From positions 1-22,482 of IMG/VR virus record IMGVR_UViG_3300001450_000357: 22,482 nt of DNA; one strand, written 5' to 3'. Origin of the DNA: a virus. The position numbers were made by a program, and so were the translations under genes. Below are positions 1,131 through 15,820 of this stretch, piece by piece. The stretch's first letter is position 1, and each line of letters starts with the position of its first letter. The notes under the pieces were generated by a model that ran no database searches, had not been told where the DNA came from, and was given only the letters and a program-made list of their open reading frames with translations.

Positions 1131-2038
1131 TGGCTAGTGATGACAGTTTAGGTTTTGAATCCTCCCTATCTTCGTGGGCAGGACCGTATGTTACGGATAT
1201 GTTGGGTAGAGGAAGGGCCGTAGCGTCTCAGCCTTACCAATCTTACTCTGGTCCGTTAACCGCAGGGGGTAGTGGTCTCCAACAACAAGCATTTACTAGC
1301 GCGGGAAACTTTGGAGACCCTACAAGTTCTACGGGCATTGGTAGCATGGGTACAGAGGGTTTTACAGGTAATACCTTTACCTCAGATACAGGGCAGACTA
1401 CAGATGCTATGACCGGGCTTAATACTCTCCCCGGTATAGCAGGTACGTACATGAACCCGTATTTGGAAAGTGCCCTTCAACCTCAGATAGATGAGATGAG
1501 GCGTGATTCTCAAATAAGTAGGTTAGGAGATGCTGCTAGGCTAACTGAAGCAGGGGCTTATGGTGGGTCGCGTCAAGCTATAATGGACTCGGAAACCAAT
1601 AGGAATCTACTGCAGGGTATAGCTCAATTACGGGGTACCGCTTACAGTGATGCTTTCGATAAAGGTAGACAGCAGTATAATGTAGACCAAGAACGTGCAT
1701 ATAACAGGCAGGAACTTATAAATCGGTATGGGTTCGATGTTATAGGAGAACAAGAAAGACTTGGTGCTACTCAGAGAGGTATTACTTCTGAGGGTATGGC
1801 TGCGGATATGGGGCAGTTTGCAGAAGAACGAGACTTTCCCTACAAGCAAGCTCAATACATGCAGTCTCTGTTACAGGAACTACCATTAGAAGCACAGACA
1901 ACCGCGCAAATAGCACCTAATGCTGTTACTGAAGGTATAAGTTCAGCTACAGGTATTCTAGGACTACTTGGGCAGTTTGGTCTATTTGGTTCAGATAAGA
2001 CAGCAGCAACAACAGCAGCAACAGCAGGAGTATCCTGA
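1130..2038 (+). CDS. 302-aa phage structural-module protein
   Basis: The ATG overlaps the upstream TAA by one base (TAATG), and AGAGGA at 1116-1121 is a good SD sequence. The protein has no signal peptide or membrane helix. The first 100 residues are rich in Gly, Ser and Thr. Residues 108-165 carry the pattern MNPYLESALQPQIDEMRR followed by AGAYGGSRQAI, a signature I recognise from proteins in the structural modules of marine podovirus-type phages. Residues 170-250 are charged and Gln-rich and probably helical. The C-terminus is a hydrophobic Gly/Leu segment (about 270-288) and a low-complexity Thr/Ala tail encoded by a CAG/CAA-rich stretch. It is probably a virion or tail-associated protein, but no catalytic motif is visible. 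Confidence 0.8.
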   Translation: MASDDSLGFESSLSSWAGPYVTDMLGRGRAVASQPYQSYSGPLTAGGSGLQQQAFTSAGNFGDPTSSTGIGSMGTEGFTGNTFTSDTGQTTDAMTGLNTLPGIAGTYMNPYLESALQPQIDEMRRDSQISRLGDAARLTEAGAYGGSRQAIMDSETNRNLLQGIAQLRGTAYSDAFDKGRQQYNVDQERAYNRQELINRYGFDVIGEQERLGATQRGITSEGMAADMGQFAEERDFPYKQAQYMQSLLQELPLEAQTTAQIAPNAVTEGISSATGILGLLGQFGLFGSDKTAATTAATAGVS

Positions 2039-3660
2039 TGCTTACCAATGACACGATACGAGGTATAAGTGGGTTAGAAAGCGCTTATAAAGGTAACGTA
2101 CCTGCTCTAGAGCAAAGAGCAAACATAGATAAGAGTCTAGCTACAGGACTAGTTTTAGAAAAGGCTAGAGAGATAATAGAGGCTAGTGCCAATGACTTGG
2201 CCTCTAAAGTTAATATACAAGATAACGACCCCACCGTTATAGATCAAACAGCAGAAGACATGCGTACTTTATTAGGCGGTCCTCCATCCAATGCGCCAAT
2301 GGGTACTCCTGAGTTAAATAAAGCAGGAAATGTAGGGGGGATAAACAACCTTGCAATGGCTAGGCAGCAACAAGCTCTTTCTGGTTTAGGTAAACCTAGA
2401 CCCCAAAGACCCCAAGGTATGCCCCAAGGTAGACCCCAAGGTATGCCCCAAGGTATGCCTCAAGGTAGACCCCAAGGTATGCCTCAAGGTAGACCCCAAG
2501 GTATGCCTCAAGGTATATCGAGATTACCCACTAACATGGCAGCTATGAAGAATATGGCTAGAGGTGGGATTGTATCTTTTAGTGGTGAAACTGGGAGTGA
2601 AGTTAAGCTTCCTCTTACTATAGATCAGCAGTACCAAGAGCAGATAGATGCTGCAAATAGACTTAGCCCTCGAGCTGCAGATGCAGCATCCGATCCAAGG
2701 TCTACAGAGGAACTAGTAGCCGGTGCATCCGATCCAAGGCTAGAACCAGAAGCGGAGCGAACAGAGGGTAATTTTGAATACAACAGCACTACAGTTACAG
2801 AGGCTGAAGCTGATAGAAAGCGTAGGATGGGAGAGGATGGTAACGAAGTTGACCGCGATGCAGGAAATATATACGCATCGGGTAACAAGAAATTTAGCGA
2901 AACACTGTATGGTAGTGTTGATGCAGAGGGTAACCCTGTAGCCGGTATCCTTGATACATACAAGCAAAAAAGAGATGCAAGAAATAAAGAGATAAACGAA
3001 GTTTTAGCAAAAAGAAAAATGAGTTTTCTAGGTATGGAAATCGACCCTGAAATGTTATCCGCAATTAGTAAAGGGATGGCAGGTAAGAAAAGTTTTGCGG
3101 AAGGTGTTAGTGGAGGGGGTGTAGCAGCTACTCTATTTAACAAGGAGCAAAGACAACTAGAAATATCGCTAAGAGAAAAAGCGCAGAAACAAGATGACGC
3201 AGATTTAGCAAGGGAGTTAGAACTTGCAAAGTTAGAGCATGGTAACAATAGTGCCCAAGTTAAAGAGTTAATGCAGTATCGGTTAGATGCGGATAAATTC
3301 GGTTTTGCTATAGCAGATGCTAAAAACAAATCTTTAGAATTCTTACTATCTTTGGATATAAAGAAACTAGAATTCGCAGAATTAAAAGATAAGAACCTCT
3401 TCGAAAAAGAACTAGCCGTAATTGTGACTAACTTAGAAGCTATAAAAGGTCAGGCTCTAAATAAACAAGAGGCAGGTAAGAGGATAACAGCAGCAATGAG
3501 CGCACTGAGTGTTATTGGTAGGAACATTAGCAGCCAAGAAATATTGTCCGATATAACACAAATAATACAGGTACTTCTTAAGGATTTAGCTAAAGGTGTA
3601 GACGAGGTTTCTGACCCTGCTTCAATTAGAACGCCACAGGCCAAACCTACCGATGACTAA
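2038..3660 (+). CDS. 540-aa virion-module protein with PQG repeats and helical C-terminus
   Basis: Start and upstream stop overlap by one base (TGATG), with AGGAG at 2026-2030, 7 nt before the ATG. Residues 122-160 form a run of 4-residue units (RPQG/MPQG). Residues 173-181 (MARGGIVSF) resemble the AGGIMSL segment of the first gene in the window. Residues about 217-235 hold an imperfect ASDPR duplication. From about residue 300 onward the protein is Lys/Glu/Leu/Ala-rich and strongly helical, possibly coiled coil (about 375-480). No enzymatic motif was found. Position between the 302-aa protein and the giant virion protein suggests a virion component or an internal or ejected protein. The function is unassigned. 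Confidence 0.78.
   Translation: MLTNDTIRGISGLESAYKGNVPALEQRANIDKSLATGLVLEKAREIIEASANDLASKVNIQDNDPTVIDQTAEDMRTLLGGPPSNAPMGTPELNKAGNVGGINNLAMARQQQALSGLGKPRPQRPQGMPQGRPQGMPQGMPQGRPQGMPQGRPQGMPQGISRLPTNMAAMKNMARGGIVSFSGETGSEVKLPLTIDQQYQEQIDAANRLSPRAADAASDPRSTEELVAGASDPRLEPEAERTEGNFEYNSTTVTEAEADRKRRMGEDGNEVDRDAGNIYASGNKKFSETLYGSVDAEGNPVAGILDTYKQKRDARNKEINEVLAKRKMSFLGMEIDPEMLSAISKGMAGKKSFAEGVSGGGVAATLFNKEQRQLEISLREKAQKQDDADLARELELAKLEHGNNSAQVKELMQYRLDADKFGFAIADAKNKSLEFLLSLDIKKLEFAELKDKNLFEKELAVIVTNLEAIKGQALNKQEAGKRITAAMSALSVIGRNISSQEILSDITQIIQVLLKDLAKGVDEVSDPASIRTPQAKPTDD
2401..2517 (+). repeat. 12-bp coding minisatellite (PQG repeat)
   Basis: About nine copies of a 12-bp unit (CCCCAAGGTAGA or CCCCAAGGTATG, some with CCT for CCC) encode [R/M]PQG repeats. 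The copies are nearly identical in DNA as well as protein, which points to recent slippage expansion or to length variation within the population. Confidence 0.95.
2686..2739 (+). repeat. 15-bp exact repeat 39 bp apart
   Basis: GCATCCGATCCAAGG occurs at 2686-2700 and again at 2725-2739, in the same reading frame, and encodes ASDPR twice, 13 codons apart. It looks like the remnant of a short in-frame duplication in the 540-aa gene. Confidence 0.8.
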
Positions 3661-6600
3661 ACCAAGTATAGAAGATTGGGAAAATTGGTTAGACAAAAAC
3701 CAAAATCATCCTTCTTTTGAAAGGGTACAGGGAGACTATTTAAAATTAGTTAAAGAAGATGCTGCAGTAGAAGAAACTGTAGTAGAAGATTCTGTTGAAG
3801 AAGATCTTGATGGGGGTAGCGGGGTTGTAGTTCCAAAATCAGAAGAAAAATTAGCATCTGAACTAGAAGAACTAATAGCAAAAGTCTATGCACCCCCTCC
3901 TACTCCCCCTGAGAATAAACCCGGTGATTTTATGCGGGGTTTAGCTAGTGGTAAAGATTACGGAGATCTTCTAATTGGTTCTGCCTTAGAAGGAGCAGGA
4001 AACGTAACAGGTATACAAGGTCTGGTTGACTACGGGCAAGGGTCTATAGAGAGTAACCAAGCGGAGCTAGATAAACTTCAAGGGGATATGATTCGGTTTG
4101 AAGATTTTACAATATTAGAAGATCCCGGCAAGTTTGCAGATTGGGCACAACAAACACTAGGGGCAGCAATACCTATTACTGGTACGAGTATAGCCACAGG
4201 TTTAGCCGCAGCACCAGTACTAGCATCCTTGGGGCTAGGTGCTCCTGCTGTAGGTTTAGGTTCCGCTGTAGTTTCCGCTGCAAGTATGCTCCCTTTTATG
4301 TTTGGAGGTAATCGAGAAGAGCAGAAACAAGCTATAGAAGAAGGTTTTAGAGAAGAAATAAGTGAGGGAACGGCGTTCCTATCTGCTATACCCCAAGCTT
4401 CATTTGAGGTACTTGCTCAGAGATTTCAGCTACGGGGTTTGGGAGAACTGTTTAATAAGTATATTAAAAGTGAAGGTGGTTTTCTTACTAAAATAGTTAA
4501 AGATTTTGCTAAAGGTACTTTTTCAGAAGTTCCTACAGAAGTTGGACAAACCTTCATTGAAAATTTACAAGCGGGTGGGATTGACTACGCCACTAGTCCC
4601 GACAAAATAAAAGAGTTAGAAGAAGTAGCGGCAGGTGCTGCTATTGTAGGAGGTACTCTTCAATCTGGTGCAGGAGCTTTTGATGTCGGACTATCCAGAA
4701 GAGACGCTAGACTAGCTGCTAAGTACGGTAAGCAGATGGTAGATGGCATCTCTTCCGGTGATAACGTGGTAGAGGGCGAATTCATACCCGCCGGTAAAGG
4801 TACTCAAGCAACATATGATGGACCTACATCCGAGCTAGAACAGATATCCGAACTAGAACGCATAATTGCAGAAACTGACCAAAATAAAACGCAATTAGAA
4901 AGAAGGAAGGTAAGAGGGCAGTTTGGGGATCAACTAAATTTAGCCTTAGAAGACGCACCTACTCCTACTCTGATACCTGCGCCCGTTGAACCTCCTTCTA
5001 GTCTTAGTGAAGAAGCGTCTTTAGAAGTGATAAAAGAATACGCATTAGCAGAAGAGAGATACGATAACGATGTATCTGATGCAGACATAGAAGAGGTAAC
5101 TAGGGAACAAGTTAAATCAGAGCGTTTAGAACCTACACCTGTAACGGAAGTACTGAAGAACGTAGAAGAGAACGAGACAGATCCTGAGTTTAAAAGTTTA
5201 GCAAACACGCTAGGTAAGCGTTTTGGAGAACTAGCAGAAGTAGGTGTGCCTGAACCTAAAGTAATTTCTGGCCCCAAAGAAATTGTAACTGATATTACAG
5301 GTAAAGAAATTGAAGATGACGTGGGAGGCAAGCTTCTACTCAACGAAAACATTATATATGTAAACCCGAATGCTCAGATATCTGAAGGATCACCCTTTCA
5401 AACAGTACTGCATGAGGCAGTACATGGAACTCTAGTATCTACTGTAGATATAGGTAGGCAGGAGAAGAATAAAAATACTCCATTAGGTAAGACCGTTGCA
5501 GAGTTAGATAATGTGCAGGGAGTAATACAGGCTTATCTTGCCGACAAGTTATCCCCCTTTGAACCTTATGCATCTTCTAACGAGCAAGGGGAAAAAGTTT
5601 ACGACACAGCCAATATACCTGCAGAGTTACTAAACACTTTAGACCCAGTAGAAAGAAGTATTGTCGCTGGTACTAATATGTTTAGAAACGCTGATGAAAC
5701 TCTAGCTTGGACAAACACTAACAACGAAGCTAAGAGGTATCTAGAAGGTGTACCTGTATCTGAAGCCGACCCTATAAGTGAAGGGGGTAAGATACGTAAT
5801 CTATGGGATGCTTTTGTTAATTGGACTAGAAAGCTACTTGGTATAAGCCCTAAAGATGCTACTGCGTTAAGTAAAGTACTTGCTGTATCAGATAACTTGT
5901 TTAGTGCGGATCCCAATCAAATTGCTGAAGGCATGCCTGACTTTCAAAAAAGAGTACAGGCTGGGGAAGTTACGCAACCTGACATAAAGTTTGTAAAGAA
6001 CATTATAGGTTTTTTGAAAGGGGATAAGGCTAAAGAATCTAAAAGCGTTGTTCAAGGTACCACAGAACGAAGAGGTGATGTATATACTCCTACCGATACT
6101 ACCCCCGGACCTAACTCTTATTCCCGTCTTTCCCCAAAATACTTTTTGCTACGGAAAAAAGACGCAGGGGAAAGATACATATACCCGACAAAAGTTAAAG
6201 CTAAGAAGACTATTAGCAAACCTAAACCAAAGAAAATAGAACCTACTCGTAAAGTTAGTAAAGCTGAAGAAAGAAAAGACGGTACGGTAGAACTATTCTC
6301 CACCGTTGCATTGCTTGCGGGAGAGAATAAAAAGTCAGTAGTAGCTAAGGAAGTAGAAAAGCTACAAGAAAAGATTGACGCAGGAGATAAGCTACTTAGT
6401 AAATTAGATTTTGAGTATGGTCCTAATTACGAAGACTTAATCGCTTTAGTAAGAAGGGGTGTAGAAAGTACAACTAGTGCAGGTAATTTTGTTACTTCTA
6501 GTGATAGAAACAAAGCAATAGAGGTACTAAGTACTTCTAATAAACGCAAACTTAGTATTTCAGAGAGGGCTATGTATGACTACTTGTCAGGAACAGGTAG

Positions 6601-9600
6601 GTTAGAGGATGCGTTAGTAACGATAGCCTTTGAAAGAGGTGAGGATGTAAGTGGTTCTGATCTCAATGTAGAGTTCTCAAAAAGTAAAGCTTTAACTCTG
6701 GAAGAAAATACTAAATTTGCAGGGACAGGAGGTAAGAATAGTCGCCTAGCTGAAGAATGGGTGATAAGTAACTTATCTGCTGGCACACTAGACAAGTACA
6801 ACGAGATAGTAAGGGCTTACGTTGCAAAAATAGTTTTAGTTAAAGGTTGGGTTGTTCGAGATAAAACTAAAATAAAAGATAAGCAACTTGTAGATTACGG
6901 TATAGCTACTAAACGTCCTCCTTCTAAAGATACATTATCAGGGGAAGTAACTACTTTTACTCCTGAACAAATAAAAGCATACGAAGCTTCCCCCGAAGGT
7001 AAAGCTAGAACAAAAAGATCTCAAGATAAGTTTATAGCGGGATTAGCGGTAGGAGATGTTGAATCAGATATATTTACAGAGTTAAAGAAACGAGAGGAAG
7101 CACGAAGTAAAAAACTAAACAGCCTTAAAAAAGCACAAGTTTTAGAAGAGTACGTAAATGAATTATCTGGACAAGTAACTCTTAACTATCTTAACAAGGA
7201 TATAGTTGACGAATTTAACTTACCCTCAAACGCAGTCTCTCAACTAGCGTTACCACTACACCCATCTGTAATCGGGGCGTTACAAAAGGGAGATTTACGT
7301 TTTGCTCTAGGTCTTTTAGATGCACGTTCTAAGGGCAATAGTGTGCCCAAAGATTATAGAGATTTGATTAAATCTATAGCTGCTAATTTCCCTGCATACC
7401 TTAATGGTGTAAAAGTAGAAATTATTCCTAACCTTAAAAATAGTTTAGGTCTAGACGTAGCGGGATTGTTTGATGAAACAACAGATACTATAAAACTAGA
7501 TTCTACGGAAGGTATGAATAGCCATGTGCTACTGCATGAAGTTGCTCACGCTGTACTCAACGCTGTACTTTCTAATAAGTCTCATCCAACAACTAAACAA
7601 CTAAACAAGTTGTTTAAAGAAACTAGTGAGATACTAGGTACTGGAGAGTACGGGTCCGTTAGCTTAAAAGAATTTGTTGCTGAAGCTCTTAGTAACATGG
7701 AGTTTAGGCATGCTATATCTAGCGTATACCCTAAAGGTGGGCCAATAAATTCCTTTAAGCGATTTGCTAACATAGTTATAGAGTTTTTAAATAGAGTTCT
7801 TTCATATGTAGGGTTAGGTCGTAAGGAAGACATGGTTAAGAGTGGTATTAAAATACCCTCTGTCCGTACTATAGATACTAAAGAGTCAATACTGTCTAAC
7901 GTAGGTAAGATAGTTGAAGCTTTACTGGCTCCTACAGCCGAAAACGTAGGTGTAACCGAATTAAACAGTCAGAGACCTGAAGAAGTTCTAGCAAATATAG
8001 AGAAAATACAGAAAGCTATTGTAGAAAGTGGAGGGACAAGACAAGACTTTACGGACCAGATAGTAGATGGGTTTGGGTCAATGGCAGACACCGCTAAAGA
8101 AGTACTACTCAAGACTCAAGATAGTCAAGACGTAGCCGTCTTAGCAGAAAAGTATGACTTAGGTAGAGTGGGCTACGACATATTTGAAACAATGCTTAAA
8201 CAAAGAGGAGCTATACAAGCCGCTAACAAAAATACGGATATTGTAAAAGAAGAATATATTAGTTGGTTCAAGAGGCTAAAGGATCAAGCTATTGCTGCAA
8301 AGAGGGACTTAGATGCGCTTATATATAGTCCTGAGTTTGGAGCTACAGTATGGCAAGTAAACCCCCTACTTAACAAGAAAGCTGCGTTAAAACGGTACGC
8401 TAACCAACCAGATAAAATAGAAATATGGAACAAGCAACAACCGTATGTACGTAGACTAAAAGCCAACGGTGGTATGAGAATATATAAACTCATGCGAGAT
8501 CATTACGTCGATAGCTATAAGCAGATGCAGAAAGTTATGGAGGGGCGTATAGATGAAGTTTTTGGCAGTACGCCAGAAGGTATAAAAGCGGCTAAAAAAC
8601 TAAAGCAGGAAGTGTTTGCAAAATTATTTGACAGAAGTTTGTTAGAGGTATACTTCCCACTAACAAGAGAAGGTAGGTACAAAGTACCTTTTATAATGAG
8701 GGAGGGGACGTACAGCGGAGAAGACCCTTTCGCTATGATAATGGTGGATAGTAATCAAGAAGCTAAAAGACTAGTATCCCAATTAGAAGATAATTCTGAT
8801 ATAGATTTTGTTTACCCTATAGTTGACGGTAAATACGATTCTAAAACTTTTCTTTCTAATGCTCCCCCGTCTTCATTTGTATCTCAAATCATAGAAGAAA
8901 TAAATGCAAACGCTACTGATAAGCAAGTAGCGGGAGAGCTTGTAGACAAAATAATGGATCTATGGGTTAGTTCTTTACCAGAAACTTCTTTTGCTCAGTC
9001 ATTGCAAAACCGAAAAAATACTCCCGGTTTTAAAGTGGATAGTTTCTATGCATTCACCACAAAGGGTTATGACATACCTGTACAGACGGTACGTTTAGAG
9101 TATAGCGCCAGACTTACTCAGTTAGGTGACATAGTAAAAGAAAACTACGTAAAGGCAGTTTCTCAGAAGAAGAATCAGGAACCCGAATACAAGTTGTTAC
9201 CTGTCGCTGTAGAGGATTCGTTACTTGGTAGTAGATTAAGTGCTATAGCATTGATACGGGATAGGCTTCTAAGGGATGTGCAGTTTGCATCGAATCCCCC
9301 TACTGGTATAGCTGAAGATATAGCCAAAAATCTTAATCAGTTTGCCTTCATACAGTCTATATGGATGAACGTATCTTCAGCGGCAATACAGCTAGGGCAA
9401 ATACCCTTTGTAGTGTATCCGATGCTTGCAGGTAGGTATGGGTGGAATGAAACGGGTAGTGCGTTAATGGAAGCTACTGGGTTAGTAATGCGTTCCGTAG
9501 ATATGAGATCTCTCGACGCAGGTATAGATAACTACGTGGAGTTAGTAAAGGTTGGTAAAAAACAAGAATACCGAATAAAGCCTAGTGTATTTAAAAATCT

Positions 9601-11101
9601 TTCCATAGGGGTTTCTCCAGAAGAAGCTTCTAAAAAAATACAAGATATGGAGGATCTACTACCCCTAATTACTTATGCTTTAGCTACAGGACAGTTAAAC
9701 AGAACATTCTTACAAGACACCCTAAACATATCAGAAGGAGGGCGTGAGAAAAAAGGTAATAAAGTTAGAAATGCTTACGAGGTAGCTACCTCAGTAGGTG
9801 CAGCTATGTTTAACACAGCGGATAGAATTAACCGCCAAGTTACTCTGGTAGCTGCTTACCAACTAGAGCTACAAAGAATACGAGATTTAAATAAGAAAAA
9901 TAAACCAAAAGGAACTAATGATCCTAATACCCTAACACCAATACAGATGCAAAATGCAGCGGTAAAAGCTATGTATACGGCTACAGAAACTAACGGGGGT
10001 ATTTTTCTAGAGACAGGTCCAGAAATAGCAAAGAAACATATGTTTCGTGTGATGGCTATGTACAAGACTTATGGTTTTAAAATGAATACCTTGATGTTAA
10101 ATACTGGGACTTCTGCCGTAAAAGTTATGTATAAAGGGAATACTGTAAAAGATAAGCTTTTTAGGAACGAAGCGTTAAAACAGTTTATTTTTGTACACCT
10201 ACACACTTTATTTTTATTAGGTGTAAAAGGTATGCCTCTATGGGGGATAGTAGCTGCCAAAGCATTGCTAGACGAAGTATTCTCCCCGGAAGACGAGACT
10301 GCAGAGGAGAAGGCACAAGACTATTTAGCTAATTTAACGCCCGGTCTAAATCTAAAAGAACTCTTCTACAAAGGGCTTATAAACTACGGTTTAGGTATCG
10401 ACATAACTGATAGAGCTAAATTAAATTCTCTTATCCTCCAACAAAATAAATGGAACAGAAGACCAGATTTCTTTGCTTTTGTAGCACAGCTTGCAGTCGG
10501 TCCTTCTGGATCTACTATTCAGAATACTGTAAAGGGTGGGCTAGATGTCTATAACGGAGAAACAGAAAGGGGTATAGAAAAAATGTTACCTCCGGGGTTA
10601 GCTAGTAATTGGAAATCTTCTTTTGGGCGGTTAGCTAGGGAGGGATATAGATCTAGGGATGGGCACCCTATATACACAGATGTAACCAGAGGTGAGTTAG
10701 CCCTACAATTCTTTGGGTTCCGCCCTGCAGAAGTGGCGTATAGGTCAGACATGAGTGCTAGATACAGAAGGATGAGTAAGGCAATAACAGAGAAAAGAGC
10801 AGATATATACAAGCGTTATAGGGAAGCGGAGTATGACGCTCCAAAGATGGCTTTAGTTATGAAAGACGTAGAGGCGTTTAACAAAAAAGAAGGCGTAAAG
10901 TTCCCCGATATAGCAATATTAATTGGTGATCTAAGAGATTCAGCATATAACGCTAGGCGACGTGAGGATCAGTATGTCAACGGGGTGTTCATCCCTCCGT
11001 TCATGCAGGAGTACGTTCAAAAGATTTCAGACGATAGAAATAGGGCTTTCAACGGGGATACATCCATAAATTCTAAGTACAACCCAATACTAGAAGAATA
11101 A
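3653..11101 (+). CDS. Giant 2482-aa virion/ejection protein with two HExxH domains
   Basis: The start overlaps the previous gene by 8 nt (ATGACTAA) with no clear SD, so translation is probably coupled. Residues about 167-218 are Gly/Ala-rich and hydrophobic, as in ejected inner virion proteins. Residues 587-591 are HEAVH with E682 in NADETLAW; residues 1295-1299 are HEVAH with E1340 in SLKEFVAEALSN. Both fit zinc-metallopeptidase sites with a downstream Glu ligand and look like paralogous copies. The C-terminal third has segments such as AAIQLGQIPFVVYPMLAGR, MFNTADRINRQVT and ELALQFFGFRPAEVAYR, a pattern I recall from very large polyvalent phage virion proteins. No lysozyme or transglycosylase motif was spotted. 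The probable role is a virion protein injected with, or helping to inject, the genome. The metallopeptidase substrate is unknown. The gene fills one third of the window. Confidence 0.85.
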   Translation: MTKPSIEDWENWLDKNQNHPSFERVQGDYLKLVKEDAAVEETVVEDSVEEDLDGGSGVVVPKSEEKLASELEELIAKVYAPPPTPPENKPGDFMRGLASGKDYGDLLIGSALEGAGNVTGIQGLVDYGQGSIESNQAELDKLQGDMIRFEDFTILEDPGKFADWAQQTLGAAIPITGTSIATGLAAAPVLASLGLGAPAVGLGSAVVSAASMLPFMFGGNREEQKQAIEEGFREEISEGTAFLSAIPQASFEVLAQRFQLRGLGELFNKYIKSEGGFLTKIVKDFAKGTFSEVPTEVGQTFIENLQAGGIDYATSPDKIKELEEVAAGAAIVGGTLQSGAGAFDVGLSRRDARLAAKYGKQMVDGISSGDNVVEGEFIPAGKGTQATYDGPTSELEQISELERIIAETDQNKTQLERRKVRGQFGDQLNLALEDAPTPTLIPAPVEPPSSLSEEASLEVIKEYALAEERYDNDVSDADIEEVTREQVKSERLEPTPVTEVLKNVEENETDPEFKSLANTLGKRFGELAEVGVPEPKVISGPKEIVTDITGKEIEDDVGGKLLLNENIIYVNPNAQISEGSPFQTVLHEAVHGTLVSTVDIGRQEKNKNTPLGKTVAELDNVQGVIQAYLADKLSPFEPYASSNEQGEKVYDTANIPAELLNTLDPVERSIVAGTNMFRNADETLAWTNTNNEAKRYLEGVPVSEADPISEGGKIRNLWDAFVNWTRKLLGISPKDATALSKVLAVSDNLFSADPNQIAEGMPDFQKRVQAGEVTQPDIKFVKNIIGFLKGDKAKESKSVVQGTTERRGDVYTPTDTTPGPNSYSRLSPKYFLLRKKDAGERYIYPTKVKAKKTISKPKPKKIEPTRKVSKAEERKDGTVELFSTVALLAGENKKSVVAKEVEKLQEKIDAGDKLLSKLDFEYGPNYEDLIALVRRGVESTTSAGNFVTSSDRNKAIEVLSTSNKRKLSISERAMYDYLSGTGRLEDALVTIAFERGEDVSGSDLNVEFSKSKALTLEENTKFAGTGGKNSRLAEEWVISNLSAGTLDKYNEIVRAYVAKIVLVKGWVVRDKTKIKDKQLVDYGIATKRPPSKDTLSGEVTTFTPEQIKAYEASPEGKARTKRSQDKFIAGLAVGDVESDIFTELKKREEARSKKLNSLKKAQVLEEYVNELSGQVTLNYLNKDIVDEFNLPSNAVSQLALPLHPSVIGALQKGDLRFALGLLDARSKGNSVPKDYRDLIKSIAANFPAYLNGVKVEIIPNLKNSLGLDVAGLFDETTDTIKLDSTEGMNSHVLLHEVAHAVLNAVLSNKSHPTTKQLNKLFKETSEILGTGEYGSVSLKEFVAEALSNMEFRHAISSVYPKGGPINSFKRFANIVIEFLNRVLSYVGLGRKEDMVKSGIKIPSVRTIDTKESILSNVGKIVEALLAPTAENVGVTELNSQRPEEVLANIEKIQKAIVESGGTRQDFTDQIVDGFGSMADTAKEVLLKTQDSQDVAVLAEKYDLGRVGYDIFETMLKQRGAIQAANKNTDIVKEEYISWFKRLKDQAIAAKRDLDALIYSPEFGATVWQVNPLLNKKAALKRYANQPDKIEIWNKQQPYVRRLKANGGMRIYKLMRDHYVDSYKQMQKVMEGRIDEVFGSTPEGIKAAKKLKQEVFAKLFDRSLLEVYFPLTREGRYKVPFIMREGTYSGEDPFAMIMVDSNQEAKRLVSQLEDNSDIDFVYPIVDGKYDSKTFLSNAPPSSFVSQIIEEINANATDKQVAGELVDKIMDLWVSSLPETSFAQSLQNRKNTPGFKVDSFYAFTTKGYDIPVQTVRLEYSARLTQLGDIVKENYVKAVSQKKNQEPEYKLLPVAVEDSLLGSRLSAIALIRDRLLRDVQFASNPPTGIAEDIAKNLNQFAFIQSIWMNVSSAAIQLGQIPFVVYPMLAGRYGWNETGSALMEATGLVMRSVDMRSLDAGIDNYVELVKVGKKQEYRIKPSVFKNLSIGVSPEEASKKIQDMEDLLPLITYALATGQLNRTFLQDTLNISEGGREKKGNKVRNAYEVATSVGAAMFNTADRINRQVTLVAAYQLELQRIRDLNKKNKPKGTNDPNTLTPIQMQNAAVKAMYTATETNGGIFLETGPEIAKKHMFRVMAMYKTYGFKMNTLMLNTGTSAVKVMYKGNTVKDKLFRNEALKQFIFVHLHTLFLLGVKGMPLWGIVAAKALLDEVFSPEDETAEEKAQDYLANLTPGLNLKELFYKGLINYGLGIDITDRAKLNSLILQQNKWNRRPDFFAFVAQLAVGPSGSTIQNTVKGGLDVYNGETERGIEKMLPPGLASNWKSSFGRLAREGYRSRDGHPIYTDVTRGELALQFFGFRPAEVAYRSDMSARYRRMSKAITEKRADIYKRYREAEYDAPKMALVMKDVEAFNKKEGVKFPDIAILIGDLRDSAYNARRREDQYVNGVFIPPFMQEYVQKISDDRNRAFNGDTSINSKYNPILEE

Positions 11102-11171: not shown

Positions 11172-11408
11172 TCATAGAATTCTCCATACACGCACCCCCA
11201 GAAACCCACTTTCTACCCTTATATCTACTTTAAGTACCCATTCCTTAGCATTAAACACTACTTTAAGCTGTTTCTTCGCTTTTGTAGTGTTTATACATGG
11301 TATGAACGCAGAAGCGCCGACTACCATATCGTCCCACTCCACGGTTATCTTTACCCCATCAGGGTATAGGTCATACGCCCGTAGTATCTCTAGGTTCTTC
11401 GTCTTCAT
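11172..11408 (-). CDS. 78-aa conserved-type small phage protein
   Basis: The last gene of the leftward block. The ATG at 11408 lies inside the 3' end of the primase gene (38-nt overlap), without a clear SD, so it is probably translated by coupling. A GTG at codon 23 is an alternative start. The core WDDMVVGASAFIPC and the C-terminal GFLGVRVWRIL fit a family of small phage proteins I recognise by its W-x2-M-x-VG-x-S-x-F-x-P pattern and terminal GVRVWR. Predicted composition is beta-rich, with no membrane segment or metal-binding motif. I know no assigned function for it. Confidence 0.65.
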   Translation of the reverse strand: MKTKNLEILRAYDLYPDGVKITVEWDDMVVGASAFIPCINTTKAKKQLKVVFNAKEWVLKVDIRVESGFLGVRVWRIL

Positions 11409-14142
11409 CTAAGTCAAACTTCATAACTAGTACGTCAGCCGCAGGGAGAACTAATTTGGTACCCTTACCTAATCTAACTTTCTCTCGTTTACCGTCACAG
11501 TGTTCTTTTATCTGCTTGACTAAGTACCCATAATTTATCTGTAGTTCACCACACCAATTTTTGAGTATCTTAGGTACCACGTAAAACTTCTTAGTATCAG
11601 GTTCGTATCTTGCAACTAACTTACCCCTAGCCATTACATCAGGTATAACTAAATCATCTAGCCCATTACCATGCATCTTACGTAGGTCTTGTGTGCTCTC
11701 TATCTGCAGGATGTTACTTATATGCTCACTGAAGAAATCGTTCATTATGTCAAATACTGAGGCATCACTTGTTTCTGTATTACGTTTGTTCTGAGGAAGT
11801 AGTACCTCTATTACCCATTTGAATATCTTTTTTATCGGGAAGTTATGTAGCCCTGCGTGTTTTGCCAGTATTAACCCAGACATGGTAGCTGCTATATGTG
11901 CAGACCAGAAACGGTTTTCCTGACTCAATGTACCTTCTTTATCCACATACTTTTTAACTTGTTTAGTAAGTGCTTCAGCTTCCTCTAAGTGATTCATTAT
12001 ATATTGTACGAAGGGTATACCTGCGGTACCAAACTGCTTGTATTTAACTGCCCCTTCAAACTCATAAGTCTCTTCTATAGAATCAAACAGGTGTTTCACA
12101 TTAGGTACATAACACTCTAGCACCCTCTGTGCCTCTGCTTTGGGCATAGCTTTAGCCATACTCACACGTTCGATAATACTAGCGTTACCTGTAGTGTTAG
12201 ATAGTAAGCTCCAAGCATGCCCCCTAAACCTTTCTACATTACTACTTGATGCCATGCGAGCACGTTGCTTACCAGAGGTAAACTGGTAGATAAGGTCAGA
12301 AGCTTGCTTGGGGGTAAGGTTAGTTATCTCGTCTATGCACCAAGGTAAGCTGTGGTATATCTCCCCACGGTTCATCTTACTTAGAAAGGTGTCCTCCTTA
12401 TCCATTATAAGTCTCTCTGGGTTCCCCCATATACCTGTAGCGGTAATCATAGCCGTAGTTTTAGCTACCCCTGAGTCTAAATTATGTAGGTGCATAGCAG
12501 CACAGTTAGCGTTAAAGAACTCCATAAGAACTGAACCAAACCCTGTACCTAAGACATATTGGTATAGTTCTAACCCATCTTTATTCCAAAAATCTATAGT
12601 CTCTTTCCACTCTTCTAGACTACCTTTAGGTTCAAAAGCGTCAAATAGACCTATAGTGTTATTAGATGGGGGGTTAAACTCTATACCGTCTGCGGTTATC
12701 TTCTGGTTACCTAGTACGAATGCCTCCATCTTAGGGCTAGTCCAGCCGAACTGCCTGTGTGCATCTTGAGCTACGCTGTTAGCTTGTAGTTCATTTATCC
12801 AACTAGTTGTGTAAGACATCAGATCATCCATTTTAGTAACAGCTACTCCCTGAGAAGCTACTACTTTTCTAAACTCCTCCCTAGAAGTAATAGCTGCTAG
12901 AGGTATAGTGAATTCACGTACCCCATCTCTAGGTAGATGTAACCGCATAACGGCGCTCTCCCCTAGTTCTGGATCGTGAATTCTTTTAACTACGTATAGG
13001 TCATTATGGTAAATAAGTTTCTCATCTACATCCCCATCTGCCGTAGAAGAGCGTAAAAACACTCCCCCATTAGCCCCTCTAAAATACGGGGGAGGGTAGT
13101 CAGGTATTGAAGAACTGGTTTCAGCTTCTTTGAAGCCATTACCTAATACAATAGGGGATTTAACTTTCCCCCAATTTGGGCAACTAGGACATATATCAGG
13201 ACTAAACTCATCAAACTTAGCACAGGTGTATGGCCCTTTGATTGGACCATATTTCTTAACCGTCTCTTCCTCTGAATAATTAGGGTGTTTTTTAGATAGT
13301 TTTCTAGCTGCCTTATCTCCATCACTACAGAATCTAGCTATAGAAAGCCCTGCTCTCCACATAGGCTCACTAGTATTCTCTTGGTCTGTCATTATCAGAC
13401 TTAACTGCTCACACCCACTACCTGCATTAGTCTTCTTAATTATGTCTATAAAACGTGACTCTCTGCTACCAAGTAAGGCATCCATAACTGCGCTCTTGGG
13501 GGAGCCTTTTGCTCTTGGTATAGGGGTTTGTTCTACACCGAAGAACCTAGAGAATGTATCAAAGCTTAAAGGTTCAGCGAATTTACTTATAAGTTTTACT
13601 AATGCTGGAGGAGTAGTTTTGTGGTTATGGGTTAACGGGATACGTAGTACCCTAGCAGTATCTGCGGTAACCGCAGGGTCTGCATATACCTTATTTTTGG
13701 AAAGTACTTCCTTAAAACTCCTTGCTACTGGTAACCATTCTTCTGGAAGTACTGCTTCTTCTAAAGGCCAGTATGCATGTATGCCCCTACCAGAGTTTAG
13801 TATCGTAGGTTTGGGTACACCTTTAGCTATACAGAAATCTTTAAGCGATAAAAGAGCTTCTTCCTGTGATTCGTAATCTTTGCTAGGCCCACAATCTAGG
13901 TCTACAAAAAAAGATTTTAGTTTATGTACATTGGATGATGTCCTAGACTCGGACGTTATAAACGTAGATAGTGCAAAATAGGTATCCCAACCCTCGCTAT
14001 CTAGTCTGTATGCGGTTGCTAATAGGTCTGTAGTATTGTCAAAAAACTTTTGTGTTATTTTGTTTGCTTTCGAATTAGAAGCGAATAGACAATACGAGCC
14101 GTCACTACATAGCACACTATTTAAAAATAGTTCTGTTTCCAT
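11371..14142 (-). CDS. Primase-polymerase fused to DUF927 helicase-like domain
   Basis: The N-terminal domain looks like an archaeo-eukaryotic-type primase/PrimPol: FFVDLDCG gives the metal-binding D81 and D83, NSGRGIHAYW supplies H122, and DTARVLRIPLTHNHK (161-175) has the conserved Arg/Thr/Asn set. A Cys cluster (C307, C318, C321) may bind zinc. The C-terminal half (about 450-690) matches DUF927: P-loop-like NLDSGVAKTT (554-563, K561), IWGNPE at 571-576, and Walker B-like CIDE (602-605). The Walker A motif is degenerate, with Ala before the Lys. The protein would make primers and probably unwind DNA at the fork, taking the place of the Toprim primase/DnaB-type proteins of other phages. The C-terminus is acidic. 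No good SD precedes the ATG at 14142; instead a structured U-tract element lies directly upstream. Confidence 0.87.
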   Translation of the reverse strand: METELFLNSVLCSDGSYCLFASNSKANKITQKFFDNTTDLLATAYRLDSEGWDTYFALSTFITSESRTSSNVHKLKSFFVDLDCGPSKDYESQEEALLSLKDFCIAKGVPKPTILNSGRGIHAYWPLEEAVLPEEWLPVARSFKEVLSKNKVYADPAVTADTARVLRIPLTHNHKTTPPALVKLISKFAEPLSFDTFSRFFGVEQTPIPRAKGSPKSAVMDALLGSRESRFIDIIKKTNAGSGCEQLSLIMTDQENTSEPMWRAGLSIARFCSDGDKAARKLSKKHPNYSEEETVKKYGPIKGPYTCAKFDEFSPDICPSCPNWGKVKSPIVLGNGFKEAETSSSIPDYPPPYFRGANGGVFLRSSTADGDVDEKLIYHNDLYVVKRIHDPELGESAVMRLHLPRDGVREFTIPLAAITSREEFRKVVASQGVAVTKMDDLMSYTTSWINELQANSVAQDAHRQFGWTSPKMEAFVLGNQKITADGIEFNPPSNNTIGLFDAFEPKGSLEEWKETIDFWNKDGLELYQYVLGTGFGSVLMEFFNANCAAMHLHNLDSGVAKTTAMITATGIWGNPERLIMDKEDTFLSKMNRGEIYHSLPWCIDEITNLTPKQASDLIYQFTSGKQRARMASSSNVERFRGHAWSLLSNTTGNASIIERVSMAKAMPKAEAQRVLECYVPNVKHLFDSIEETYEFEGAVKYKQFGTAGIPFVQYIMNHLEEAEALTKQVKKYVDKEGTLSQENRFWSAHIAATMSGLILAKHAGLHNFPIKKIFKWVIEVLLPQNKRNTETSDASVFDIMNDFFSEHISNILQIESTQDLRKMHGNGLDDLVIPDVMARGKLVARYEPDTKKFYVVPKILKNWCGELQINYGYLVKQIKEHCDGKREKVRLGKGTKLVLPAADVLVMKFDLDEDEEPRDTTGV

Positions 14143-14151
14143 TTTAGCCCC

Positions 14152-14228
14152 AAAAAAAGAGTCGCGGAACCAGCGGAGAACTTACATAAGAACCCGCTGT
14201 TTTCGGGATATAACTCCCTACCCGCGAC
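14152..14228 (-). ncRNA. Structured three-way-junction RNA with U-tract before the primase gene
   Basis: Read on the - strand from 14228, GTCGCGG (14228-14222) pairs with CCGCGAC (14167-14161), and a G-U pair can extend it. Inside are a GGGA/TCCC hairpin (14218-14205, 6-nt loop) and a CAGCGG/CCGCTG hairpin (14199-14171). Right after the closing stem comes TC and then seven Ts (14158-14152). This resembles an intrinsic terminator whose stem needs a three-way junction to form, so it could be an attenuator, a riboswitch-like leader or a processed small RNA. It fills most of the 98-nt gap between the SSB and primase genes. It does not match any riboswitch that I can name, and it lacks tRNA landmarks. 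Confidence 0.5.
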
Positions 14229-14240
14229 GAAACCTAAAGT

Positions 14241-15563
14241 CTATTCATCCCATTCATCTATTAGATCGTCTAATGAATCTTCTTTAGGTGGGGCTTTCTT
14301 ACTCTTTACTATAGCTTTTGGCTCTTCGGGTTCGTCAGGCTCCTCATCTACTTTAGCAGGTGTATCACCCACTGCTGTAAAGGAATGACCTTCTTCACCT
14401 TCTTCAGACCCATAACCTTCTTGGGCAGTGAAACTGTTGGATACAACTTTTTCAGCTAACGCGATAACCTGTACGGCTCTAGGTCTTAAAGATACTCCAC
14501 TACCCATAGCAGGATTAGACCAAGCATAGAAACCTACTTCTATATTTACGGTACTACCAGTAGTTAACTGAAAGTCTTCTGGTAGTGGTTCCAAGTTTGC
14601 TTTGTATTGCTTGGGTTTAGGAGTCGGACGGTCATTATAGGCCGCTTTAACTTTGCACTGTGTTTTAAACACTGCGTTCTTTTCTTTTTTACTACCCTCT
14701 ATAATAGTAAACCTATCATCAAACTCACCCCAAGATTCTTCAGCGTTCTCCTCATAGAAAGCTTTCATCTCTTTACGTAGCTTTATAGCTTCGCTGTAGG
14801 GTATTTTAAGATCAATGCAAAATTCCGCGCCATCTGTCTTAGCGTCACAAGGTTGGCTTCTGTTAGCTGCCTTGTCAAAGTAGTAGGGTTGGTCAAGCTT
14901 GGGCCAAAGTGCTTCGGCCCCTTTTATCTGGTGGTTCATTGTGTTCTCCTCAGAACTAAAATTAAATGTATAGTCCGTAGAGTAGTCGGTAGTTATAGCC
15001 CCAATAGTATCCTTGTGACTTATCATAGAAACTACTTGTGCTACCTCACACTCCTGTAACGGACGGTTTGGTGCAAAATATAACTTAGGCACCATGCTGT
15101 TTTTGTCAAAAAAAATCCTTGTGTATATAGATTCAGCGGAAGTACCTCGTCCGTTTAAGAACTTTGCGTATTCCTGCAAGGGCATATTCTTACCCTTAGC
15201 CTTACCAAAAATAGAATTGGCAGGTACTTGTATCTGGTATACAGTGTCTAGACCGTCTTCAAACATGACAGCTATTTTCTGTGAGAATCGGCAAGCCCGA
15301 CCCCCACTAGAACTGCTCCCCCGTACATTCTGACTACAATCAATGCACCTATGTGCTTGTTTGTTTTCTAACAGAACACTGCTGTGGGGTTGTTGCGTAT
15401 CAGTAGACCAACATACAGGCTTCTGAAAACTATTAAGGTCAAAACTATTTTGGTAAAAAGCCCTAGATACAGGTGCCGCATTGACAACTACTACCTCTAC
15501 TTCATCACCAAAACTATCATTCCCAGTTTCAAAGTTACCTGTACGTATACTTAATCTACGCAC
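14241..15563 (-). CDS. ssDNA-binding protein: Zn-finger domain fused to gp2.5-like SSB
   Basis: Starts with GTG, overlapping the upstream TAG by one base (TAGTG) with a weak SD. Residues 1-208 contain C51, C73, C76 and C91, spaced like a zinc ribbon (VCW...HRCIDC...GRACRF), and resemble the N-terminal ssDNA-binding or recombination-associated protein common in phages. Residues 209-440 look like a separate T7 gp2.5/DUF2815-type OB-fold SSB: the beginning MNHQIKGAEALWPKLDQ, a basic-aromatic middle, then an acidic tail ending DDLIDEWDE, as SSB tails do for partner recruitment. The 232-residue C-terminal part is the usual size of a stand-alone protein of this type. A strong internal SD and ATG (14939) sit exactly at the domain boundary, so both the fusion and the short SSB may be made. 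It lies beside the primase and follows the HTH protein. Confidence 0.75.
   Translation of the reverse strand: MRRLSIRTGNFETGNDSFGDEVEVVVVNAAPVSRAFYQNSFDLNSFQKPVCWSTDTQQPHSSVLLENKQAHRCIDCSQNVRGSSSSGGRACRFSQKIAVMFEDGLDTVYQIQVPANSIFGKAKGKNMPLQEYAKFLNGRGTSAESIYTRIFFDKNSMVPKLYFAPNRPLQECEVAQVVSMISHKDTIGAITTDYSTDYTFNFSSEENTMNHQIKGAEALWPKLDQPYYFDKAANRSQPCDAKTDGAEFCIDLKIPYSEAIKLRKEMKAFYEENAEESWGEFDDRFTIIEGSKKEKNAVFKTQCKVKAAYNDRPTPKPKQYKANLEPLPEDFQLTTGSTVNIEVGFYAWSNPAMGSGVSLRPRAVQVIALAEKVVSNSFTAQEGYGSEEGEEGHSFTAVGDTPAKVDEEPDEPEEPKAIVKSKKAPPKEDSLDDLIDEWDE
14937..14951 (-). promoter_or_regulatory. Internal SD and ATG for a stand-alone SSB
   Basis: On the - strand GAGGAGA, a 5-nt spacer (ACACA) and ATG lie in frame at codon 209 of the 440-aa gene. 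This is a stronger SD than the one before the GTG of the full-length protein. It would give a 232-residue product covering only the gp2.5-like domain and acidic tail. Confidence 0.65.
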
Positions 15564-15820
15564 TAAAAGTCTTCGTCAAGCGCAGCTATACCTGTAAATT
15601 CGTCAGGCTCAGACTCCGCAAAAAGTTGCTCACCTGCCTCTACGAGTTCACCCCTTAGATGTTTCTCTATAGCGGGTATATCAAAACGGTAAGTAGTATC
15701 AGCTTTGACGTAGCATGACCTGTCTATTAGACCTTTCTTTACCCACAGCCTTACAGTAGGCTCAGATATATCAAAAAACTTAGCAACGTCATGTACGTTA
15801 GAGTACTTAGATTCACTCAT
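15563..15820 (-). CDS. Small HTH DNA-binding protein, MerR/excisionase-like
   Basis: An 85-aa protein. Residues about 6-45 (VHDVAKFFDISEPTVRLWVK, then KGLI) form a winged HTH of the MerR/excisionase (HTH_17) type, a fold used by small phage regulators and Xis proteins. The C-terminal 30 residues are acidic and may be a partner-binding or regulatory tail. The start overlaps the upstream gene by 8 nt (ATGAGTGA), and its stop overlaps the SSB start by one base. No integrase is present, so a regulatory or replication-accessory role seems likelier than excision. The targets are unknown; the palindromes at 22358-22413 are one untested candidate. Confidence 0.75.
   Translation of the reverse strand: MSESKYSNVHDVAKFFDISEPTVRLWVKKGLIDRSCYVKADTTYRFDIPAIEKHLRGELVEAGEQLFAESEPDEFTGIAALDEDF

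Follow-up and report, generated by a model that had tools for sequence, protein, structure and literature searches.

The gap 5' of the primase gene of a marine phage encodes a conserved three-armed RNA, and this element probably restrains translation of the primase rather than ending transcription. The source DNA was the 22,482-base IMG/VR virus record IMGVR_UViG_3300001450_000357, the whole of which is referred to here as the window. Taken together, the observations are best explained, with a probability of roughly 0.55, by a divergent phage RNA of the int-alpA lineage that controls, in cis, how the next gene (in this case the primase) is translated.

Structure and conservation of the RNA element

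An earlier note on this DNA had read the - strand between the SSB and primase genes as a closed three-way fold, in which a 7-bp stem (14161-14167 with 14222-14228) surrounds a 4-bp and a 6-bp hairpin, and our analysis confirmed this fold. The minimum-energy fold of the 68-nt element (14228-14161 on the - strand) was the three-way junction, at -29.9 kcal/mol, compared with a mean of -17.66 (sd 2.7) for shuffled sequences (z -4.53; 0 of 200 shuffles equally stable). When the flanks were included, z was -3.00 and 2 of 200 shuffles were equally stable. The + strand also folds, as expected for an inverted structure.

The closing stem P1 is formed by GUCGCGG (14222-14228) and CCGCGAC (14161-14167). 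The P2 hairpin, GGGA/UCCC (14205-14218; arms 14218-14215 and 14208-14205), has pairs that are conserved in homologues, and the P3 hairpin, CAGCGG-L3-CCGCUG (14171-14199; arms 14199-14194 and 14176-14171), has a stem that covaries in homologues and a loop, L3, at 14177-14193. The two hairpins are joined by the strand GAAAA (14200-14204), which matches both the homologues and the Rfam consensus; this strand starts with GAA in 101 of the 102 homologous elements listed. While UA and GAAAA are kept in the window, the strand from P3 to P1 (J3/1) is GU or GUU in place of CU. Beyond P1 lies a pyrimidine linker, UCUUUUUUU (14152-14160), at a position where relatives often show UCUYU, and its run of seven U (14158-14152) occupies the place of that motif. 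It is followed by GGGG (14148-14151), which from its position before the ATG at 14142-14140 is the presumed ribosome-binding site of the primase gene.

Scanning IMG/VR with the primase yielded 30 loci, and scanning with an alignment yielded at least 599 stretches, of which the best 80 were used. Five genome contigs also matched, one of them across nearly the full length. The gap between the upstream ORF and the primase could be delimited in 107 loci drawn from the matches listed, and 43 of the 64 non-redundant gaps among the loci listed folded at z < -2. Many gaps share a junction core composed of P1, UA, P2 (GG..CC), GAAAA, P3, CU and P1'; most of the remaining gaps form one long hairpin.

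We then built a covariance model (R1) from 24 gaps of other phages, leaving out the window and its twin contig. The held-out model matched the window at 14231-14141 (-) with 21 bits and E 7.7e-5, while the next site in the 22.5 kb had E 0.45. The copy in the twin contig (L001, L002; IMGVR_UViG_3300025168_000315; 33.8 kb), whose element is identical and whose SSB and primase have 100% protein identity to those of the window, gave the same score and an E of 0.00016 in a direct search. In a 390-kb search with a cut of E 0.001, the window copy was not among the R1 matches. R1 matched 49 of the 91 related loci listed at E 3.4e-6 or better, all in the pre-primase gap, a count that includes the 24 model-building sequences; ten further matches, with E from 0.0034 to 0.96, were weak or located elsewhere. 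A search of whole records with R1 found one match each in 10 of 20 records and missed the twin record (G010). At the DNA level, the window element had just two weak matches (E 0.6) among named phages, and L133 had none at E 1 in E. coli genomes or phages.

The compensatory changes that the earlier note had proposed to look for in the stems of related gaps were present. In an alignment of 45 elements, 14 of the 16 pairs were changed on both sides, 95.1% of cells were paired, compared with 35-57% when the partner strand was slid, and the covariation score was 0.619 versus 0.264 (sd 0.014) in shuffles. Having been fitted to the structure, this alignment is biased toward it, yet the compensatory changes can be read directly from the sequences. 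The junction strands were nearly invariant among the aligned relatives. As judged from these comparisons of sequences, homology and conservation hold for the RNA type, the window copy included, and the proposal of a multibranch RNA control element in the SSB-primase gap was borne out to this extent. The wobble cells (41 G-U versus 7 A-C) fit selection on the - strand, a bias that would be shared by RNA and single-stranded DNA.

Primase tree and gene neighborhood

The primase tree had 63 rows, with the window represented by its twin contig L002. In this tree the sister of L002 is L003, whose gap forms a plain hairpin, and L034 adjoins them; the wider clade contains L035, L005, L037, L006 and L008. 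L002, L034 and L035 share a well-supported clade, and the R1 scores of L034 and L035 were 30.3 and 40.8 bits. The fourth P1 pair is A-U in L034-L036, and between L035 and the window it has undergone a compensatory change to G-C. On the other hand, L003, L006 and L008 had no R1 match even at E 10, and L005 and L037 matched only at E 0.11-0.15; a junction can nevertheless be drawn for both L006 and L008.

Among the loci listed, 30 of 33 non-redundant gaps without an R1 match folded at z < -2, compared with 13 of 31 gaps with the junction; the 33 include L002, which is in fact a weak R1 match. Since the no-match gaps fold more strongly than the junction gaps, a plain strong hairpin can apparently replace the junction in this clade, and the tree implies that one form gave way to the other a minimum of five or six times. 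Strong structure of whatever shape may be what matters here. We take the window element to be homologous to the typical ones and to lie on a branch whose structure is probably eroding or changing. In the hairpin-type loci L011, L013 and L019, the coding end of the SSB gene, GATTATC, folds with GGTAATC after the stop codon into a second structure directly before the main hairpin.

The gene 3' of the element (11371-14142, - strand) encodes a primase-helicase, with matches to DUF927 and a primase-type PHROG (phrog_25314). The gene 5' of it (14241-15563, - strand) encodes an SSB of 440 amino acids whose C-terminal half matches Gp2.5-like SSBs. This SSB is a single ORF with an extra N-terminal part (phrog_27714), while apparently the same parts form two overlapping ORFs of 219 and 245 amino acids in L022 (1762-3124), so that a fusion or a split occurred in the phage group. 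An 85-amino-acid protein resembling MerR or HTH_17, with matches below the curated cut-offs, is encoded before the SSB gene (15563-15820). The alpA in the name int-alpA is a small HTH gene, and a small HTH-like gene near an int-alpA-like element may be more than coincidence. Elsewhere in the window, the ORF at 2038-3660 contains a stretch of Pro-Gln-Gly-Met/Arg repeats, and positions 3653-11101 hold one ORF of 2482 amino acids in which two stretches resemble HExxH-type motifs by eye; its product is perhaps a large virion protein.

Neither a tyrosine integrase nor a serine recombinase was matched in the 18 records of the phage group (24.8-64.2 kb), which are possibly incomplete. The search for the tyrosine integrase covered 20 records, and its sole match was in the record of L167, outside the group. 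If the phages are lytic, the RNA would serve timing within infection, not prophage immunity.

Relationship to int-alpA and other RNA families

No tRNA and no Rfam family at its gathering score was found anywhere in the window, in agreement with the earlier view that the element matches no recognized tRNA or riboswitch. The Rfam int-alpA and C4 models gave nothing at E 5 over 14000-14400, and the int-alpA model gave nothing at E 1 across the record. At Rfam thresholds, the broader statement that nothing known is matched is correct for the window copy but not for some of its homologues, which match int-alpA (RF02996). Among 18 relatives searched whole, two reached the int-alpA cut-off of 35.8 bits (L107 with 41.8 and L061 with 39.6). 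In further searches, L074 was just below it (35.6 bits), and L099 had no int-alpA match. A pattern scan of viral contigs for the motif, blind to gene context, found at least 120 stretches and gave 80 loci. Nine of 18 of these motif-scan loci were above the cut-off; one, L174, precedes a primase gene, and the other eight precede other genes. The int-alpA-scoring homologues span 36.0-49.7 bits, and in the pre-primase gap a minority of homologues (L107, L061 and L174) reach the cut-off.

The likeness of this RNA type to int-alpA consists of the same three-way junction, the same order of stems and the junction strands CUAG, CGAAAAG and CCUG of the Rfam consensus. The window copy differs in having no Rfam match, in its GU or GUU strand and long L3, and in its place between SSB and primase, away from an integrase or alpA; the context of int-alpA near these two genes we take from the family name. 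We call the window element a divergent, int-alpA-like RNA, a designation that follows from likeness of sequence and fold.

Across the 80 motif-scan loci, elements lie 5' of primase genes and also 5' of other genes. Ten of the 22 distinct downstream proteins were scanned, and these had matches to KilA-N, Rha, Bro-N, HNH, DUF1376, integrase (two), glycosyltransferase (two) and DUF927 primase; the ORFs assigned to L144 and L194 begin 350 and 133 nt away and are possibly not the first gene. Such variety is what a portable leader would produce. A named example is Pseudomonas phage YMC11/02/R656, in which the element precedes the Rha gene. In L243, the ORF upstream of the element was recognized by eye as an integrase. 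The regions 8131-8313 and 8845-8920 of L189 hold matches to the Rfam families C4, c4-a1b1, isrK and int-alpA within about 0.8 kb.

int-alpA was reportedly described in a 2017 paper, and we know of no mechanism for it. In full-text literature searches, one paper (PMC12370729) named int-alpA, in a table of predicted small RNAs; RF02996 was named in none, and among the papers listed none dealt with a structured RNA between phage SSB and primase.

A ribozyme, considered from known junction cores, was rejected, as none was found among the Rfam matches of the window and of the relatives and motif-scan loci searched. The C4 antisense RNAs (RF01695) were compared as well, with phage P1 c4 as general background. 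These resemble the present element in being phage RNAs that can pair with two targets close by and lie in the vicinity of regulatory or replication genes, as does the satellite P4 CI RNA (PMC4825925, in part). They differ in that the C4 consensus junction lacks the CUAG and GAAAA core, and the window has no C4 match.

Loop L3 and translation of the downstream gene

In many relatives, L3 is antisense to the 3' flank. The test set comprised 102 elements (45 and 57 from two sets; the second match of L182 was left out), which were reduced to 47 by removing near-copies, and the pairing of each loop to the flank of the same element was compared with its pairing to flanks swapped in from the others. 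At least five consecutive Watson-Crick pairs with the own flank were found in 32 of 47 elements, versus 17.5 (sd 3.0) after swapping, a value that none of 5000 swaps reached. The excess was also seen for at least six pairs (19 versus 6.2) and at least seven (10 versus 2.1). Targets were concentrated near the closing stem: 13 started 4-5 nt after P1, with 1.7 expected, and 20 of the 47 elements had a near target (offset 2-8), versus 4.0 (0 of 5000). Two separate targets were found in 16 of 47 elements, versus 3.9 (0 of 5000), and 22 elements had a distal target, versus 12.5 (a count equalled in 2 of 5000 swaps). On inspection by eye, a plausible ribosome-binding site often coincides with the second copy or directly follows it, as with GACGGC, present twice in L171, and AUGGAG, present twice in L194.

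The primase set of 26 phages also had near targets above expectation (9 versus 2.9; 0 of 5000), while distal targets (7 versus 6.7) and two targets (3 versus 2.2) were not above chance in this set, and the test for any target was weak (13 of 26 versus 9.5; 364 of 5000). A first, smaller L3 test had given 96 of 2000 swaps that were equally good. A five-base target is missing from 15 of the 47 elements; in L070, L071 and L094 the P3 loop is short and closed and there is no target, and L096 has just a far one. In the window there is no convincing target for L3: one 6-nt match was found at offset 26, in the coding region, and none of 7, and chance often gives such a match. L2 was rejected as a second antisense loop, as its pairs with the own flank numbered 16 versus 21.6 after swapping (4952 of 5000 as high).

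The Rfam int-alpA model was also run over 289 bacterial genomes from the class to which a Rhodobacteraceae MAG belongs, and 7 of them had a match, 5 over the cut-off. All eight places in these genomes, five of them over the cut-off, had L3-flank matches of 5-9 nt, and 48 of 40320 permutations were as good, the real one included; the bounds of the loops and the start codons were chosen by eye. For the six loci remaining without L240 and L247, the figure was 3 of 720, again with the real one included. Since the bacterial places are also complementary, this is apparently a feature of int-alpA in the Rfam sense, and its natural reading would be translational control of the next gene.

The complementarity of L3 to its own 3' flank, together with the frequent location of a second copy close to the ribosome-binding site, suggests that the downstream gene is controlled at translation, and for the RNA type such putative control is well supported by these patterns. 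For the window copy, we infer control of primase translation from other relatives, since its L3 has no convincing target and its closest relative listed in the tree has a plain hairpin. The complementarity near ribosome-binding sites also favors RNA over a single-stranded DNA origin; the latter, with which the wobble bias on the - strand would also fit, was rejected on this ground.

We propose that a widespread phage RNA lineage, recognized in part by Rfam as int-alpA, has a divergent member in the window. The RNA would be transcribed between the SSB and primase genes and act in cis on the gene directly 3'. The typical junction, with UA joining P1 to P2, GAAAA joining P2 to P3 and CU joining P3 to P1, would in relatives that have it present L3 to the 3' flank, where it would pair with its target, most often from 4-5 nt after P1, and close a pseudoknot. 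In many members, L3 could also pair with a second copy, which often lies close to the ribosome-binding site; competition between the two targets and masking of the start site would then be possible. Pairing of L3 with its target would thus repress translation, and the window copy would presumably still act in this way. In the window, the same junction abuts a presumably weak ribosome-binding site and lacks a clear L3 target; it would be expected to limit or delay translation of the primase relative to the SSB.

Phage T4 offers partial parallels. According to excerpts of PMC3014915 and PMC2988022, mRNA structures in the T4 leaders of I-TevI, mobE, segB and gene e close the start site, including those of homing endonucleases, and one int-alpA-like element precedes an HNH gene. 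The T4 leaders differ in that, as excerpted, their helices or hairpins include the start site, while here a conserved junction has a loop that may pair with the flank. The T4 gene 32 leader, in which a pseudoknot controls translation of a replication gene, has another fold, is bound by the SSB itself and sits before the SSB gene (PMC3014915, in part).

The reading offered by the earlier note, that the junction and the seven U stop transcription before the primase as a terminator or attenuator, we consider the least probable and reject as the main reading. The U-run was said to follow the stem at once; it begins two nucleotides past the GC-rich stem, with U and C (14160-14159) in between. Such a position would suit termination, as would the U-rich stretch, in lower case, on the 3' side of the int-alpA consensus in Rfam, but the U-tract is not conserved. 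A run of five U no more than 14 nt from P1 is present in 8 of the 102 homologues listed (3 of 47 without near-copies). Under a looser criterion, an eight-base stretch with six U that begins 0-5 nt beyond P1, the count is 17 of 102 (7 of 47 non-redundant). Since a long U-tract is uncommon, termination is unlikely; moreover, the closing stem encloses 54 nt with two hairpins, and the primase start codon is 9 nt past the U-run. A terminator scan of 13900-14500 called no site, the scan being limited to short-loop hairpins and blind to this fold. Many relatives carry, in place of the U-tract, a short pyrimidine linker followed by L3-complementary sequence, which points to translation. A structure for mRNA processing or stability (for example a 5' shield or a site of RNase III type), free to change shape and keeping the SSB and primase messages apart, would account for the strong folding of the gaps without a junction match and for the turnover in the tree; it is hardly more probable, as it leaves the nearly invariant junction strands and the L3-flank complementarity unexplained.

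Recognition by a protein also seems improbable. The SSB or the primase would be the most likely to bind the junction and repress primase translation, in the manner of T4 gp32, which binds the pseudoknot of its own leader and represses itself (PMC3014915, in part). The neighboring genes and the nearly invariant strands, as possible protein contacts, would suit such an operator, but the same motif precedes KilA-N, Rha, Bro-N, HNH and integrase genes, and the element lies after the SSB gene, not before it. The alternative to which we give the most weight, while still holding it unlikely, is a processed antisense RNA like P1 c4 or P4 CI RNA, in which the junction is cut from the mRNA leader and L3 silences the next gene in trans. 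Two targets per loop, as in P4, the classification of int-alpA as a small RNA in Rfam and the cluster of C4, c4-a1b1 and int-alpA matches in L189 speak for it. The P4 CI RNA pairs with seqA and seqC, before and after it, and expression of the replication genes is prevented (PMC4825925, in part); here both targets lie 3' of the RNA. Within the primase set, chance is exceeded by the near target alone, which fits a pseudoknot in cis better, and with no integrase match among the possibly incomplete group records, a role in prophage immunity is not evident.

Translational control in cis thus remains our preferred reading. We tentatively extend it to int-alpA-type RNAs in general, which might be portable translation switches whose loop chooses between the pseudoknot copy and the copy that masks the ribosome-binding site, and of which a large phage group with no integrase match recruited one to time its primase. 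If this is true, it would give a mechanism to the int-alpA RNA family, and the complementarity of loop to flank makes that mechanism testable for int-alpA-type RNAs. In an abundant group of marine and freshwater phages, represented by at least 599 primase stretches, the replication operon commonly includes an RNA of the int-alpA type.
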